A stretch of DNA of 54,699 nucleotides, from the NCBI GenBank assembly GCA_903960515.1, contig CAJCBL010000247.1:1-54699 (forward strand), written 5' to 3'. The DNA comes from an uncultured Verrucomicrobiota bacterium. Its GTDB lineage: Bacteria; Verrucomicrobiota; Verrucomicrobiia; Opitutales; Opitutaceae. Of this stretch, positions 32,609 to 45,375 are shown piece after piece; position 1 is the stretch's first letter, and every line of letters begins with the position of its first letter. Under the pieces are notes generated by a model. The model made no database searches and was not told the origin of the DNA. It was given only the letters and a program-made list of their open reading frames with translations. Both the position numbers and the translations under genes were made by a program.

Positions 32609-32752
32609 ATGGGCGACAAATCACCGAAATCCACGCAGAAGAAAGCCACGCAAAAGCAGACGACCACCGACAGCGCCAACAAGCAGAAGCAGGCGCTGGT
32701 TACCTCCCAGCAGGCGACGAAGGCGAAGGCCGCCGCAGCCAAGAAGAAGTAA
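32609..32752 (+). CDS. Lys-rich microprotein 1 (47 residues)
   Basis: A tiny very basic protein starts MGDKSPKSTQKKATQKQ and ends TKAKAAAAKKK. It is Lys/Gln/Thr/Ala-rich with a poly-Lys tail and no hydrophobic segment. Its start resembles the next gene (MGKSQDSQKQTKKKAQK), so the two look like paralogues. The composition recalls histone-H1-like or ribosome-associated basic peptides, but no function is known. It is divergent from the YkgJ-like gene, with 88 bp between them. Confidence 0.72.
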   Translation: MGDKSPKSTQKKATQKQTTTDSANKQKQALVTSQQATKAKAAAAKKK

Positions 32753-32883: not shown

Positions 32884-32985
32884 ATGGGCAAATCCCAAGA
32901 CTCCCAGAAGCAGACCAAGAAGAAGGCACAGAAGACACCCGCCGAGAAGAAGGTCGCCAAGCGCGACAAGAAGGCCGGTCGCTGA
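32884..32985 (+). CDS. Lys-rich microprotein 2 (33 residues)
   Basis: A 33-residue ORF, MGKSQDSQKQTKKKAQKTP...AKRDKKAGR, similar in sequence to microprotein 1 and followed at once by an intrinsic terminator (33021-33060). Paralogy plus a terminator at the right distance support a real gene despite its length. Function unknown. Confidence 0.65.
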   Translation: MGKSQDSQKQTKKKAQKTPAEKKVAKRDKKAGR

Positions 32986-33254: not shown

Positions 33255-33395
33255 ATGGGCGCCAAGTATCTACCAACCGTCAAAGACCAGAAAGCCATCC
33301 TGCGCTACAAGCAGCTGCAGAATCCGCTGCACAAGCTCAACCGTTCGGCGGAGGCGCAGGCCGCGCACGCCGCCAAGAAGGCCAAGAAGAAGTAG
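33255..33395 (+). CDS. Lys-rich microprotein 3 (46 residues)
   Basis: A 46-residue basic protein, MGAKYLPTVKDQKAILRYKQ...AAHAAKKAKKK. It shares the MG start and AAKKAKKK tail with microprotein 1 but has a more ordered amphipathic middle (QKAILRYKQLQNPLHKLNRSAEAQ). It is the third Lys-rich microprotein within 800 bp, and lies after the terminator of the second, so it is probably transcribed separately. Unknown function. Confidence 0.65.
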   Translation: MGAKYLPTVKDQKAILRYKQLQNPLHKLNRSAEAQAAHAAKKAKKK

Positions 33396-33429: not shown

Positions 33430-33503
33430 GCAGCCCCGCGGGGGCACGAGGGCCCTACCCGCGGCTCCTACAGGGAGCCCGTAGCAAGATCGCTTCGCGC
33501 TAC
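33430..33503. repeat. REP-like palindromic sequence
   Basis: This stretch has a cluster of short palindromes (CCCCGCGGGG near 33435, GGGCCC, GTAGC...GCTAC near the right end). It also contains GCTCCTACA at 33464-33472, the same head as the REP-like element at the left window edge. It lies between the third microprotein and the PRMT gene, which converge. Confidence 0.45.
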
Positions 33504-34612
33504 TACTGCGTGGATGCGGCCACCGGTGCCGGCGCCGGCATCACGCCCGTAGCCGCTTTCTTGCTGTGGCTCCACCGCCAGGTGTCGGGCTCAGCCCACG
33601 CGCCCACGGTCAGGGTGAGCTCAATCACCTCTCCCACCGTGAAATCCTCTTTGGCAACGCGCAGGGTGCGGAAACCCCAATGGGGCGCACGCCCGGCGTC
33701 CAGCGGGCCGGAACTCAGCGAGAGATCGCCGTCCACCCGTGCCCGGAAGAACACCACAAAGCCGTCCAGCCGGCCGGCGTTGACCACGGTGCGCTGAAGG
33801 CGAATCTCGTGCGGCAGGTCGTCCTCATTGAGGGTCTGCAGGTCCAGGGTGAGGGCGGGGGCGGGATTGCCGAGGAAGTGCTCGACCACGCCAAGGTCGC
33901 AACTGTTGTGCCGGTAGTAGGGAGCTTCCTGCGGCCGACTGCGCTCCAAGCAGGAGAAATTGTATCCGTGCACGTCGAGCTCCCAGATAAAGGGGATACG
34001 GCGCTCGTCCTTCACCTTGATCGGCTCGCAGTAGAACTCGAAGACCGAGGGCACGATGCGCCCGCCCGGTTTGAGCACACGCTCGCGCAGGTCGATGACG
34101 TTGGGCACCATCGCCTCGTCGAAGAGGAAGTCGCCCATCTGCTCGTGGAGGATCACATCGACCCGCTCGCGCAGGGCGAAATCCCTGCTGTGGGTCGAGA
34201 TGAACTCGACCTTCTCGATACCGTTGTGGGTGGCCAGGCGGCGCGCGTGCTTGAGGATCTTGGAGTGGTCGATGGCGTAGACCTTGGCCGCTCCCTTGCG
34301 GGCGGCAAAGGCGGCGAGAATACCGGTGCCCGTGCCCAGGTCGATCACACGGTCGCCCGGATGCACATGGCGCTGGATCGCTGCGTGGTAGAAATCCATC
34401 CGGGGCCGGTCGGCCAGCATCTTCTCCTGCTCGCCGAACTGGGCGAAATACCAGCCGTTGAACTCGCGGTAGCCCGCGTCGGATCCCTGTTTCCCGTACA
34501 GCCAGGCCGCCACGCCGGGTCGGGCCCGTACCCAGTCCCCGCACCAGATCACCCCGCGCCGCAAGGCCGAGAATACACCCACACTGAGACGCTGCAGACT
34601 TCGAGAGAACAT
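33503..34612 (-). CDS. Protein arginine methyltransferase-like enzyme (PRMT family)
   Basis: This 369-residue SAM-dependent methyltransferase has full PRMT architecture. The N-terminal helix FGEQEKMLADRPRMDFYHAAI matches PRMT alpha-X/Y. Motif I is DLGTGTGILA (91-100), with an acidic ribose-binding residue D115. The double-E loop is HEQMGDFLFDEAM with E157 and E166, nine residues apart as in PRMT1 E144/E153. GGRIVP and HGYNFSCLE follow, then a beta-barrel with a THW-loop equivalent APHWGFR (310-316). PRMTs methylate arginine side chains in eukaryotes; bacterial members are uncommon. ATG 34612 is preferred over upstream starts that add Arg-rich sequence. It converges with three Lys-rich microproteins, which contain few Arg, so they are not obvious substrates. 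Confidence 0.85.
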   Translation of the reverse strand: MFSRSLQRLSVGVFSALRRGVIWCGDWVRARPGVAAWLYGKQGSDAGYREFNGWYFAQFGEQEKMLADRPRMDFYHAAIQRHVHPGDRVIDLGTGTGILAAFAARKGAAKVYAIDHSKILKHARRLATHNGIEKVEFISTHSRDFALRERVDVILHEQMGDFLFDEAMVPNVIDLRERVLKPGGRIVPSVFEFYCEPIKVKDERRIPFIWELDVHGYNFSCLERSRPQEAPYYRHNSCDLGVVEHFLGNPAPALTLDLQTLNEDDLPHEIRLQRTVVNAGRLDGFVVFFRARVDGDLSLSSGPLDAGRAPHWGFRTLRVAKEDFTVGEVIELTLTVGAWAEPDTWRWSHSKKAATGVMPAPAPVAASTQ

Positions 34613-40613: not shown

Positions 40614-41612
40614 TCAGGTCTTCCAGACCTGGAGGATCTTGAGGTAGTTGGCGCGCTCGAAGGCCGCCGGGTCCGGGCAGTTCTGCAGGCTGAGGGCGCC
40701 GCGCATCTGGCTGACTGAGGAGTACTCCTTCTCCTGCATCCACTGTTCCAGGCCAGCGAGGAGCGTGCGGATGTGCGCGGGGTTCTGCTTGAGCAGCGAG
40801 GAGACCACCTGCACGACACTGGCGCCGGCCAGGATGGCCTTCACCACGTCGTGGGCGGAATGCACACCGCCGGTGCAGGCCATCGGCAGCTTCACCTGGC
40901 CGAAGAGGATCGCCAGCCAGCGCAGCCGCAGGCGCAGCTCCTCGGGCGAGGAGAGGTCGAGCTTAGGCACTACTTCGAGGGCATCGAGGTCGATGTCGGG
41001 CTGGTAGAAGCGGTTGAAGAGCACCAGGCCGTCGGCGCCGTTGAGCTCGATCTCCTTGGCCATGTGGCTGACGGAGGAGAAGAACGGGGAGAGCTTCACG
41101 GCCACCGGAATCTTCACTCCTGCCTTCACTGTGCGCACGATCTCGAGCACGTCGGTCTCGACCTCCTCGCCGGAGATGGCGCCGTCGGTGGCCAGATAGT
41201 ACAGGTTGAGCTCGAGGGCGTCGGCGCCGGCCTGCTGGATGAGGTTGGCGTATTCGACCCAGCCTCCGAGCTGTGTGCCGTTGAGCGAGGCGATGACGGG
41301 GAGCTTGCAGGTCTCCTTGATGCGGCGGATGTGCGCGAGGTACTCCTGGGGCCCGAGCGCATAGTCGTCGCTCTCGGGGAAGAAGTTGGCGGCCTCGGCG
41401 AACACGTCCTCGTGGCTGCGCAGGTGTACGTATTCGGCCTTCATCTCGCGGTCGATCTGCTCCTCGAAGAGGGAGTGCATCACGATGGCGGAGGCGCCGG
41501 CGTCCTGCATCGCCTTCACGCGGTCGAGGCTGTCGACCAGCGGCGAGGCGCCGGGCATGATGGGATTGGCGAGCTTGATGCCGAGGTAGGTGGTGGAGAG
41601 GTCGAGGGCCAT
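40614..41612 (-). CDS. Dihydroorotate dehydrogenase-like flavoprotein linked to PFOR
   Basis: This is a 332-residue FMN-binding TIM-barrel protein of the dihydroorotate dehydrogenase-like family. It has LANPIMPGASPLVDSLDRVK, IASLNGTQLGGWVEYA, ALELNLYYL, VAVKLSPFFSS, LVLFNRFYQPDIDL and ACTGGVHSAHDVVKAILAGA. It lacks the typical PyrD active-site context, and true pyrimidine synthesis is unlikely. Such proteins are often encoded next to nifJ in anaerobes and cyanobacteria, as here (178 bp downstream of nifJ, same strand). The substrate is unknown. Confidence 0.86.
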   Translation of the reverse strand: MALDLSTTYLGIKLANPIMPGASPLVDSLDRVKAMQDAGASAIVMHSLFEEQIDREMKAEYVHLRSHEDVFAEAANFFPESDDYALGPQEYLAHIRRIKETCKLPVIASLNGTQLGGWVEYANLIQQAGADALELNLYYLATDGAISGEEVETDVLEIVRTVKAGVKIPVAVKLSPFFSSVSHMAKEIELNGADGLVLFNRFYQPDIDLDALEVVPKLDLSSPEELRLRLRWLAILFGQVKLPMACTGGVHSAHDVVKAILAGASVVQVVSSLLKQNPAHIRTLLAGLEQWMQEKEYSSVSQMRGALSLQNCPDPAAFERANYLKILQVWKT

Positions 41613-41790: not shown

Positions 41791-44700
41791 TCAGGACGCG
41801 GCGGCGGGGGGCGTCACCTTGGGGGCAACGGCGGCCTTGGCGGCGTCGGCCAACTGCTGGTACACGGCCCAGCGGGTGGAGATGTTGGCCTGGGCTTTGT
41901 CGCCGAGCATCTTAGCGCGCACCGGGTCCACCTTATGGAGGAACTGGTAGCGGATCTCGTTCTTGGTGTATTCGGACAGGGCGACCTTGGGCGCACCCGA
42001 ATCGAGCACGAACTCCGCCTCGCCGCGGGCGGGGCGGCGCGGGTCGTAGCGGAACATCGGCCAGTGGCCCGACTCTACGGCGAGCTTCTGCTGGTCGAAG
42101 CCGTTGACCATCGAGTAGCCGTGCGCGATGCAATGGCTGTAGGCGATGATCAGCGACGGACCGTTGAAGCTCTCCGCCTCCCGGAAGGCCTGGATGGTCT
42201 GCGAGTCCTTGGCGCCCATGGCGACGCGGGCTACATAGACGTTGCCGTACTGCATCGCCATCAGGGCGATGTCCTTCTTGGCGGTGTCCTTGCCGTTGGC
42301 GGAGAACTTCGCCACGGCGCCCATCGGAGTGGACTTCGACTTCTGGCCGCCGGTGTTGGAGTACACCTCGGTGTCGAGCACCAGGATGTTGACGTTGCGG
42401 CCGGTGGAGAGGACGTGGTCGACGCCGCCGTAACCGATATCATAGGCCCAACCGTCGCCGCCCAGCACCCACACGCTCTTCTTTACGAGGTAGTCGGCAA
42501 GCTGCACGAGGGTCTTGGCCTCGGGCTGGTTGACGGTGGCGAGCTTCTGCTTGAGGGCGCCAACGATGCGGCGGGCCTCGGCGATGCCGGCCTCGGTGGT
42601 CTGGTCGGCCTTGGCGAGCGCCTCGACGATACCGTCGCCTACATGCGAGGCGAGGGACGTGAGTAGAAGCTGGGCCTTGATCTCGAGCTGGTCGGCGGCC
42701 AGGCGCAGGCCCAGGCCGTACTCGGCGTTGTCTTCAAACAGCGAATTCGACCAGGCCGGCCCGCGCCCCTCGGCGTTGGTGCAATACGGGGTGGTGGGCA
42801 GGTTGCCGCCGTAGATGGAGGTGCAGCCGGTGGCGTTGGCCACCAGGAGGCGGTCGCCGTAGAACTGCGTGAGCAGTTTCACATACGGAGTCTCGCCGCA
42901 GCCGGTGCAGGCGCCGGAGAACTCGAAGAGCGGCTCCATGAACTGCGAGCCCTTCAGGTCGGGCTTGAGCAGGGTGCGGTCGGGCTTGGGGAGCTTCAGG
43001 AAGAAGTCCCAGTTGCGCTTCTCCTGTTCGAGCAGCGCGGGCTGGGGCTGCATCATCAGCGCCTTCTTCTGGAGGTTGGACTTGTCCTTGGCCGGACAGA
43101 CGCGGGCGCAGAGGGTGCAACCGGTGCAGTCTTCCGGGGCCACCTGGATGGTGAATCCGCAGTCCGGATTCTCGTTGGAGCGGAACTTGGCGGTCTTGAA
43201 CGTCTCCGGGGCGCCTTCGAGGGCCTTGTTCGGGTAGAAGTTCGTGCGGATGGCCGCATGCGGGCAGACCAGGGCGCACTTGTTGCACTGGATGCACAGC
43301 GCGGTATCCCATACCGGGATGTCCTGGGCGAGGTTGCGCTTCTCCCAGCGGGTGGTGGAGAGGGGGAAGGTGCCGTCGATCGGGAAAGCGGAGACGGGGA
43401 GCAGATCGCCTTCGCCGGCCATCATGCGGGCGGTCACGCGCTGGACGAAGTCGGGCGCATCGGCGGAAACCACCGGCGGGCGGCGGCGCTTGGTGGTGGG
43501 CGCGGCGGGCACCGGCACCTGGTGCAGGGCGGCCACGGAGTTGTCCACGGCGATCCAGTTCTTCTTGACGATCTCCTCACCCTTCTTGCCGTAGGACTTC
43601 TGGATGGCCTTCTTGATCTGGCCGATGGCCTCCTCGCGCGGCAGGATGCCGGCAAGGGCGAAGAAGGCGGTCTGCATGACGGTGTTGATCTGGCCGGTCA
43701 TGCCGCTCTCCTTGGCCACCTTGAAGGCGTCGATGGCGTGGACCTGGAGCTTCTTGGCGATTACGGCCTCCTGCATCTCGAGCGGGAAGCTGTCCCAGAC
43801 CTGCTGGGGCGTGCCGCTGGAGTTGACCAGGAAGGTGGCGCCGGGGCGCGCGATGCTGGTCATGTCCACCTTGTCCACGAAGGTGGACTGGTGGCAGGCC
43901 ACGAAGTTGGCCTGACGGATGAGATACGTCGAGCGGATCGGCCGGGGGCCGAAGCGCAGGTGCGAGGTGGTCATCGCGCCCGACTTCTTGGAGTCGTACA
44001 CGAAGTAGCCCTGGGCGAAGAAGTCGGTTTCCTCGCCGATGATCTTGATGGAGTTCTTGTTGGCCGAGACGGTGCCGTCGGCGCCCAAGCCGAAGAAGAC
44101 CGAGCGGGTTACGTCGTCCATCTCGGTGTCGAGCTCGGTGTCGTAGTCCAGCGAGGTGCGGGTGACGTCGTCGATGATACCTACGGTGAAGTGCTTCTTG
44201 GACTTCGCCTTGGGGAGCTCGTCGAAGACGCCGATGACCATGGCCGGTGTGAACTCCTTGGAGCCCAGGCCGTAGCGGCCTCCAATGATCTTGGACACCT
44301 TGCGGGTGTCGGACTCCGCAAACGCGGTAACGACATCCATGTACAGCGGCTCGCCGGGGGCGCCGGCCTCCTTCACGCGATCGAGCACTGCGATCGTTTT
44401 GACGGTGGAGGGCAGTGCCTGCAGGAAGTTCTCGATGGAGAACGGCCGGTAGAGACGCACGGAGAGCACGCCCACCTTGGCGCCGGTTTTGTTGAGATGG
44501 TCGACGGCCTCGCAGGCCGCCTCGAAGCCGGAGCCCATGATCACGATCACGCGCTCGGCCTGGGCGTCGCCGTAGTAGTCGAAGAGCTTGTACTTGCGGC
44601 CGGTGAGCTCGCCGAACTCGTCCATCTTCTTTTGGACCAGGGCGGGCAGGCGGTCGTAGAAGCCGTTGGCGGCCTCGCGGGCCTGGAAGAACACGTCGGG

Positions 44701-45375
44701 GTTCTGCGCTGTGCCGCGGATGGCGGGGCGGTCCGGAGTGAGGGCGCGGGTACGATGGGCGGATATCGCCTCCTCGCTCAGGAGGCTGCGCAGGTCGTCG
44801 TCGGAGAGCAGGTTGACCTTCTGGATCTCGTGGGAGGTGCGGAAGCCGTCGAAGTAGTGCAGGAACGGTACGCGGCCTTCGAGGGTGGTGGTGCTGGCGA
44901 TGGCGGCGAAATCATGCGCCTCCTGCGGGGTGTTCGAGCAGAGCATCGCAAAGCCGGTCTGGCGGCAGGCCATCACGTCGCCGTGGTCGCCGAAGATGGA
45001 CAGCGCGTGGGTGGCCAGCGCGCGGGCCGTCACGTGCAGCACAAACGGATGCAGCTCGCCGGCGATCTTGTACATGTTCGGGATATACAGCAGCAGTCCC
45101 TGCGAGCAGGTGAAAGAGCTGGCGAGGGAACCGGCCTGGAGGGCGCCGTGCACGGCACCGGCGGCACCGGCCTCCGACTGCATCTCCATCACCTCGGGCA
45201 CCTGGCCCCAGAGGTTGGTCTTCTTCTTGGCCGCCCACTCGTCACAATGCTCGCCCATGGGCGAGGAGGGGGTGATGGGGTAGATCGCGAACACCTCATT
45301 GAGGCGATAGGCGACCGACGCTGCGGCTTCGTTGGCGTCCATGGCGACGCACTTCGGTTGCAGAGGCTTGATCAC
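41791..45375 (-). CDS. nifJ: Pyruvate:ferredoxin (flavodoxin) oxidoreductase
   Basis: This is a 1194-residue homodimer-type PFOR, full length for the family. It decarboxylates pyruvate to acetyl-CoA and CO2 and reduces ferredoxin. It has the pyruvate-binding N-terminus YPITPSSPMGE, domain II GDHGDVMACRQTGFAML, and two [4Fe-4S] clusters in the inserted ferredoxin domain (CIQCNKCALVCPH near 695 and CTGCTLCARVCPAKD near 748). The TPP domain carries GCGETPYVKLL, NATGCTSIYGG and GGDGWAYDIGYGGVDH, and the C-terminal part YSNTGGQKSKSTP is present. It transcribes with the DHOD-like gene and diverges from the HEAT-repeat gene. With HydABC it implies H2-evolving fermentation. Confidence 0.97.
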   Translation of the reverse strand: MIKPLQPKCVAMDANEAAASVAYRLNEVFAIYPITPSSPMGEHCDEWAAKKKTNLWGQVPEVMEMQSEAGAAGAVHGALQAGSLASSFTCSQGLLLYIPNMYKIAGELHPFVLHVTARALATHALSIFGDHGDVMACRQTGFAMLCSNTPQEAHDFAAIASTTTLEGRVPFLHYFDGFRTSHEIQKVNLLSDDDLRSLLSEEAISAHRTRALTPDRPAIRGTAQNPDVFFQAREAANGFYDRLPALVQKKMDEFGELTGRKYKLFDYYGDAQAERVIVIMGSGFEAACEAVDHLNKTGAKVGVLSVRLYRPFSIENFLQALPSTVKTIAVLDRVKEAGAPGEPLYMDVVTAFAESDTRKVSKIIGGRYGLGSKEFTPAMVIGVFDELPKAKSKKHFTVGIIDDVTRTSLDYDTELDTEMDDVTRSVFFGLGADGTVSANKNSIKIIGEETDFFAQGYFVYDSKKSGAMTTSHLRFGPRPIRSTYLIRQANFVACHQSTFVDKVDMTSIARPGATFLVNSSGTPQQVWDSFPLEMQEAVIAKKLQVHAIDAFKVAKESGMTGQINTVMQTAFFALAGILPREEAIGQIKKAIQKSYGKKGEEIVKKNWIAVDNSVAALHQVPVPAAPTTKRRRPPVVSADAPDFVQRVTARMMAGEGDLLPVSAFPIDGTFPLSTTRWEKRNLAQDIPVWDTALCIQCNKCALVCPHAAIRTNFYPNKALEGAPETFKTAKFRSNENPDCGFTIQVAPEDCTGCTLCARVCPAKDKSNLQKKALMMQPQPALLEQEKRNWDFFLKLPKPDRTLLKPDLKGSQFMEPLFEFSGACTGCGETPYVKLLTQFYGDRLLVANATGCTSIYGGNLPTTPYCTNAEGRGPAWSNSLFEDNAEYGLGLRLAADQLEIKAQLLLTSLASHVGDGIVEALAKADQTTEAGIAEARRIVGALKQKLATVNQPEAKTLVQLADYLVKKSVWVLGGDGWAYDIGYGGVDHVLSTGRNVNILVLDTEVYSNTGGQKSKSTPMGAVAKFSANGKDTAKKDIALMAMQYGNVYVARVAMGAKDSQTIQAFREAESFNGPSLIIAYSHCIAHGYSMVNGFDQQKLAVESGHWPMFRYDPRRPARGEAEFVLDSGAPKVALSEYTKNEIRYQFLHKVDPVRAKMLGDKAQANISTRWAVYQQLADAAKAAVAPKVTPPAAAS

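Follow-up and report, generated by a model that had tools for sequence, protein, structure and literature searches.

The window, i.e., the whole 54,699-nucleotide stretch of DNA analyzed here, carries a gene for a protein resembling protein arginine methyltransferases (PRMTs) and, convergent with it and approximately 750 bp away, the gene for a small protein, sA (Table 1). The frame of the former starts with an ATG at 34612 and is open to the stop at 33503, in agreement with the coordinates given in an earlier note, which did not indicate the strand (minus); a longer open frame, reaching 34729, shows strong third-position GC (0.67/0.46/0.84). In seven pairs of relatives, dN of 0.014–0.21 against dS of 0.19–0.99 (dN/dS 0.05–0.23, NG86) indicates that the protein is under purifying selection. 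The draft genome holding the window (5.5 Mb, 379 contigs) contains a single strong copy of the gene, the second-best match being a methyltransferase core with 29% identity (E = 6e-5); 16S was not found in this draft. Rfam gave no match at gathering scores, and a sigma-70-type scan, which is of low informative value, yielded no promoter- or terminator-like site. The sA frame is the first of 3 Lys-rich small ORFs in a row on the plus strand (47, 33, and 46 aa, the other two at 32884–32985 and 33255–33395), which had no family match; the third has one relative, in locus L013. Elsewhere in the window, a 1194-aa ORF (41791–45375, minus strand), presumably pyruvate:ferredoxin oxidoreductase-like as judged by eye, has a dihydroorotate dehydrogenase-like neighbor (40614–41612, minus strand).

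Table 1. Coordinates of the features discussed in the text.
Feature	Coordinates	Strand	Basis
PRMT-like methyltransferase gene, 369 aa	33503..34612	-	ORF; PDB phmmer, profile and structure matches
Predicted N-terminal cationic amphipathic helix, residues 2-29	34526..34609	-	helix in both models; hydrophobic moment
alpha-Y segment MLADRPR, residues 65-71 (M48, D51, R54 of PRMT1)	34400..34420	-	alignment
Motif I VIDLGTGTG, residues 89-97, SAM binding	34322..34348	-	consensus PMC12925635
Double-E loop HEQMGDFLFDEAM, residues 156-168	34109..34147	-	E157, Q158, E166, M168 invariant 22/22
PHW loop, residues 310-312 (THW loop of PRMTs)	33677..33685	-	alignment
sA, 47-aa Lys-rich small protein	32609..32752	+	recurrent gene neighbor in other genomes

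PRMT fold, active site and N-terminal helix

By fold and core motifs, the protein is a real, divergent member of the PRMT family, i.e., a distant relative of the eukaryotic protein-arginine methylation enzymes and a variant of an already known enzyme type. A phmmer search against PDB retrieved Arabidopsis PRMT10 at 4.1e-30, and 59 of the best 60 of 86 matches are named arginine methyltransferases; the remaining one, 8rbk (named only MGC151858 protein), parallels PRMT9 and was hence counted as PRMT9. With this count, the best 60 of 66 matches of a 20-sequence profile (7.6e-39) are all PRMTs. The AlphaFold model of the protein (pLDDT 74.6, pTM 0.71) matched PRMTs in Foldseek with E of 1.4e-21, although with a high rmsd (6.5–11.7 Å among the 50 matches listed), and in VIA with Z of 24.4–25.4 over 276–293 residues, all 50 matches listed being PRMTs. 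The match spans residues 42–355 and comprises, in the predicted model, a Rossmann domain followed by the PRMT-type C-terminal beta-barrel. The Pfam PRMT_C profile scored 23.9 bits, below its gathering score of 27; since the relatives in G006, G099, and G397 and at L014 pass at 27.4–28.2, this score is borderline. The earlier proposal of a PRMT rather than a generic class I methyltransferase is thus borne out by the PDB searches, the fold and the barrel.

We aligned 22 members of the clade to which the window protein belongs, 8 eukaryotic sequences, and 8 bacterial sequences from outside this clade. Six motifs and YFxxY are described as typical of type I PRMTs in passages of PMC12925635. Motif I (consensus VLD/VGxGxG), post-I (V/I-x-G/A-x-D/E, here VYAID), motif II (xDII-like, VDVI), motif III (LKxxGxxxP, LKPGGRIVP), and the double-E loop (SExMGxxLxxExM) are all present in the window protein, the double-E loop deviating from its consensus only in the first S. 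The nine-residue spacing reported earlier for this loop corresponds to E157 and E166, which align with E144 and E153 of rat PRMT1 and are invariant in the clade, as are motif I, R71, D68, and D115, the last at the position of PRMT1 E100 and shared with yeast Hmt1. Both type I active-site methionines, M65 and M168, are also kept in 22/22; their PRMT1 equivalents, M48 and M155, place the arginine for asymmetric dimethylation, as stated in passages of PMC8619983.

The same alignment reveals several departures from PRMT1, in line with the caution on specificity voiced in the earlier note. Both substitutions listed there were seen: SEWMG is replaced by HEQMG in all 22 sequences, with Q158, at the W145 position, occurring in no other aligned row, and P takes the place of T in THW. 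The alpha-X/Y helix described earlier stands only in part: M65, D68, and R71 are invariant, but N52 and F56 replace, at aligned positions, the type I tyrosines Y35 and Y39 throughout the clade, a combination shared outside it only by L048 (L049 has the F). Because YFxxY is absent, we do not file the protein as type I. For the claimed THW-like loop in a C-terminal barrel, PHW aligns with THW and the barrel is seen in the predicted structure; W312 corresponds to W294 of PRMT1 in 22/22, and at the H293 position 19 sequences have H and 3 have N (TNW). The window protein reads PHWGF, without the T and Q of THWxQ, and the PRMT7 and PRMT9 rows deviate here too. An insertion at residues 201–242 aligns with the PRMT dimerization-arm region and is modeled with low confidence (pLDDT below 50 at residues 205–236, and at 210–239 in the model of a relative).

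Compared with the type I enzymes PRMT1, PRMT2, PRMT6, and plant PRMT10, the clade thus shares the fold, motifs I, post-I, II, double-E, and III, the M48/M155 equivalents, and the HW-loop W, but differs in HEQ for SEW, the lack of YFxxY at the corresponding positions, a PHW or TNW loop, a basic N-terminal helix and a very long stem. Invariance of the core equivalents together with the changes at Q158, N52, and F56 points to an active-PRMT core with an altered substrate entrance, and the protein is, as judged from its sequence, probably active as an enzyme. We view the clade as a PRMT lineage of compact, single-domain proteins whose substrate entrance has been rebuilt.

The N-terminal residues are helical in both models, with a mean pLDDT there of only about 49–67. 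The hydrophobic moment of the helix averages 0.57, compared with 0.41 in shuffles, none of 2000 of which was as high; taken singly, only 6 of 14 representatives reach p < 0.05, and the rows are related to one another. Net charge of the helix is positive in 22/22. Such a basic helix would probably tether the enzyme to membrane or nucleic acid.

Phylogeny and distribution

The 22 sequences group together as one clade with support of 100/100, and its stem measures 2.5 changes per column. The phylogeny with eukaryotic PRMTs suggested in the earlier note puts this clade on the canonical side, with PRMT1/2/6/10 and the bacterial loci L045–L047, split from the PRMT7/9-like rows at 99/95, whereas the attachment of the stem is not settled by AU tests: grouping with L045–L047 (p = 0.14), AtPRMT10 (0.29), or all six eukaryotic type I rows (0.32) was not rejected, and the placement is unsure because of long branches. 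A single clade of all bacterial rows was rejected (p = 0.003), and bacterial PRMT-like proteins therefore comprise several lineages. The data speak neither for nor against a recent transfer from eukaryotes. The earlier statement that PRMTs are mainly eukaryotic needs softening, given the other lineages in the same phylum (L045–L047, L048–L049, L054–L055) and an alphaproteobacterial one (L050). The canonical-type L045–L047 come from the same phylum (L045 from the same family) and have the same motifs but, unlike the window clade, keep SEW and THW, pass PRMT_C (56.8–65.1 bits), and lack such an N-terminal extension.

These other lineages differ in architecture. In Verrucomicrobiota, L054 and L055 (G168, G363) encode proteins of approximately 700 aa in which 2 PRMT_C-like stretches make up a tandem-duplicated PRMT; for L054, 8rbk and PRMT9 are nearest to the second half (7e-38). 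L048 and L049 (G360, G404) are PRMT-like, read SEIIGND, and carry an N-terminal extension of approximately 100 aa, which has no Pfam match at E 0.05 and which, by eye, may resemble peptide-binding PqqD-like domains. The PRMT7/9-like protein of Tistrella mobilis plasmid pTM2 (L050:3815-4903) is annotated as 50S ribosomal protein L11 methyltransferase; its gene adjoins AMP-binding protein and oxidoreductase genes.

Relatives of the window protein with 58–71% identity were found at 21 loci, mostly titled Opitutaceae, Opitutus, Opitutae/Opitutia, or Verrucomicrobia; 3 titles name Akkermansia, Akkermansiaceae, or Verrucomicrobiaceae. That of L003, an Akkermansia muciniphila MAG, looks doubtful, the protein being 84% identical to that of IMCC26134 and all other finds of the clade pointing to the window's family. 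Among 57 genomes including the window's own, 12 have the clade (>400 bits); all 12 belong to the 37 genomes of the same family, and the 2 other genomes of the same genus both lack it; G010 and G020 have a distant match (32–36% identity). In 387 genomes of the phylum, the clade was found in 13, all from Opitutaceae, the window's family, and a distant PRMT-like gene in another 5; a PRMT_C search of the same set recovered 11 genomes, missing 7 of the 13, and none of 14 control genomes. A viral origin was rejected: the phage search returned no match to the gene, and no confirmation was obtained for any of 24 pattern matches among viral contigs. Plasmids gave one weak match. A literature search that included Verrucomicrobia but not Opitutaceae by name, with most subscription journals outside its coverage, found no paper on a PRMT of these bacteria.

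Dedicated protein arginine methylation in bacteria is little explored. One of the relatives lies in the complete genome of IMCC26134 (CP011265.1), which makes PRMT-type arginine methylation in bacteria directly testable, and the patchy distribution allows carriers and non-carriers of the gene to be paired naturally inside a single family and even inside a single genus (G397 versus G386).

The small neighbor sA and candidate substrates

In a survey of ORFs of at least 60 aa at the 22 loci, the largest clusters were the PRMT-like gene itself or its shadow frames, and otherwise no neighbor was common to more than 5 loci. Clusters of 3–5 loci lie among close relatives (L006/L008/L010/L011/L023 and L014/L015/L016); the upstream PhnA-like ORF of the window is shared only with L012, and 2 ORFs (one ArsC-like) only with L013. 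This size limit misses sA, which came from short ORFs. The sA family (MGDxSPKS) occurs in 16 of the 387 phylum genomes, with one match per genome where present; it has no Pfam, NCBIfam, or PHROGs match, and a literature search with sA peptide words returned no paper.

At L005, L013 (on the same contig as G023), L025 (G025), and L038 (G397), sA lies on the same strand as the methyltransferase gene and starts 116–145 bp after it. Overall, 5 of 37 different sequences have sA next to the gene (4 of them in tandem), scattered on the gene tree with 5 changes, at least 3 of which are forced by well-supported branches. In the 387-genome sample, sA was detected in 8 of the 13 gene-bearing genomes and 3 of the 20 gene-less genomes of the same family listed (p = 0.009, a value that ignores relatedness, with G267, which has a distant PRMT, left out). 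A partly overlapping sample, chosen earlier for another purpose, gave 9/15 versus 3/15 (p = 0.06). Both the presence of sA beside the gene, with its higher frequency in gene-bearing genomes, and the cationic amphipathic N-terminal helix are new here.

The 2 genes are adjacent in 4 and apart in 8 of the 12 genomes known to hold both, a count that includes G023 and G397, which had joined the sA search because the adjacency had already been seen there. As 6 same-family genomes have sA without the gene, sA does not need it; weak sA matches occur in 5 genomes of other families, and in G099, G137, and G304 sA adjoins a phosphoglucose isomerase gene. In genus g60, G386 (L153) and G397 (L154) have the sA site in common: the spacer that separates sA from the flanking gene contains the methyltransferase gene in G397 and measures only some 340 bp in G386, so that the gene was gained or lost next to an sA already in place. 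The overall pattern would fit either an old pair since dispersed or repeated arrival beside sA. Since sA of the window and of G186 contains no Arg, it is not just the protein that becomes methylated on arginine, and we rejected it as a dedicated arginine substrate.

Other candidates are proteins with an RNA recognition motif (RRM), one of which, encoded in the window's own genome, has a textbook RGG tail (L064). The maximum RGG count per genome was 1.93 with and 2.21 without the gene (p = 0.54; 14 versus 14 genomes, one of the 15 gene-bearing genomes being without an RRM match and the gene-less G013 having been dropped). Such tails are equally frequent without the gene and therefore give no evidence of coupling, which we rejected; as judged from their sequences, RGG-tailed RRM proteins are possible substrates.

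Proposed function and alternative readings

We consider it rather likely, on the strength of the motifs and the predicted model, that the protein is a SAM-dependent arginine N-methyltransferase of PRMT architecture with an altered entrance, a narrow substrate choice and a tethering N-terminal helix. E157 and E166 would grip the guanidinium of an arginine, R71 and D115 would position SAM, and the retained M65 and M168 would favor monomethyl and asymmetric dimethyl products. The insertion at 201–242 may mediate a putative dimer. With Q158 in place of W, N52/F56 in place of Tyr, and PHW, the entrance would impose a narrow substrate choice unlike that of PRMT1, with cellular proteins as the most likely substrates, and the N-terminal helix would probably anchor the enzyme to membrane or nucleic acid. 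A bolder extension, which we hold to be improbable, is a home-grown bacterial arginine-methylation module in which this tethered PRMT with its re-cut entrance would have the disordered-looking sA as a partner presenting or regulating substrates, including RGG-tailed RNA-binding proteins.

The main rival, unlikely but serious, is a PRMT-fold enzyme whose substrate would be free arginine or some other small guanidine compound, as for SznE in streptozotocin biosynthesis. SznE belongs to the PRMT family and acts on free arginine. In PMC12637814, SznE is described as an arginine methyltransferase encoded in the streptozotocin cluster, and a homologue with 31% in the saskemycin cluster is presumed there to supply omega-N-methylarginine; on this description, bacterial arginine N-methylation would be what the window protein and SznE have in common. 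An altered entrance would suit a small substrate, and the distant Tistrella gene (L050) stands next to one for an AMP-binding enzyme. However, SznE-type enzymes sit in biosynthetic clusters, none of which was seen here: the neighbor survey revealed no recurrent biosynthetic gene set, and the Pfam families of 10 window neighbors do not suggest such a pathway.

We regard as quite improbable a class I methyltransferase of other specificity (ribosomal protein, as in PrmA, the ribosomal protein L11 methyltransferase, or RNA, DNA, or lysine) in a PRMT-like shell. Over the SAM core, Pfam generic SAM-binding domains, FtsJ, MTS, and PrmA exceed their cut-offs (PrmA 40.5 versus 22 bits), and the PADLOC defense-system model mad2 scores 63 bits; furthermore, no other PrmA-like match was found in the window's own genome, and the recurrent neighbor sA is Lys-rich and Arg-free here. 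A profile search had been named in the earlier note as capable of overturning the PRMT assignment, but the likeness to PrmA is confined to the SAM-binding core (residues 78–164 for PrmA), as is that to mad2, whereas the barrel, double-E loop, HW loop, and structure fit PRMTs. Comparable PrmA scores are reached by the canonical PRMT-like L045, L046, and L047 (53.0, 38.6, and 46.6 bits), and the NCBIfam PrmA equivalogs stay far below cut-off (36.8–39 versus 183–269 bits; TIGR00406 36.8 versus 183.15). Moreover, separate PrmA-like matches (79–165 bits, all below the NCBIfam cut-off) occur in 13 of 15 gene-bearing genomes; therefore, the gene does not generally replace PrmA, and we rejected such a replacement. 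The best PrmA-like matches of G000 (the window genome) and G019, at 37 and 35 bits, are the PRMT core, with one further weak core match in G019; in each of the remaining 28 of the 30 family genomes, a PrmA-like match scores 68–170 bits, being split in two in G001, G002, G017, and G025.

Finally, a PRMT-fold scaffold devoid of catalytic activity, comparable to trypanosome PRMT3, might be read from the lost aromatic entrance residues and THW threonine, but is highly improbable given that both glutamates, R71, D68, D115, and motif I are retained by every clade member.
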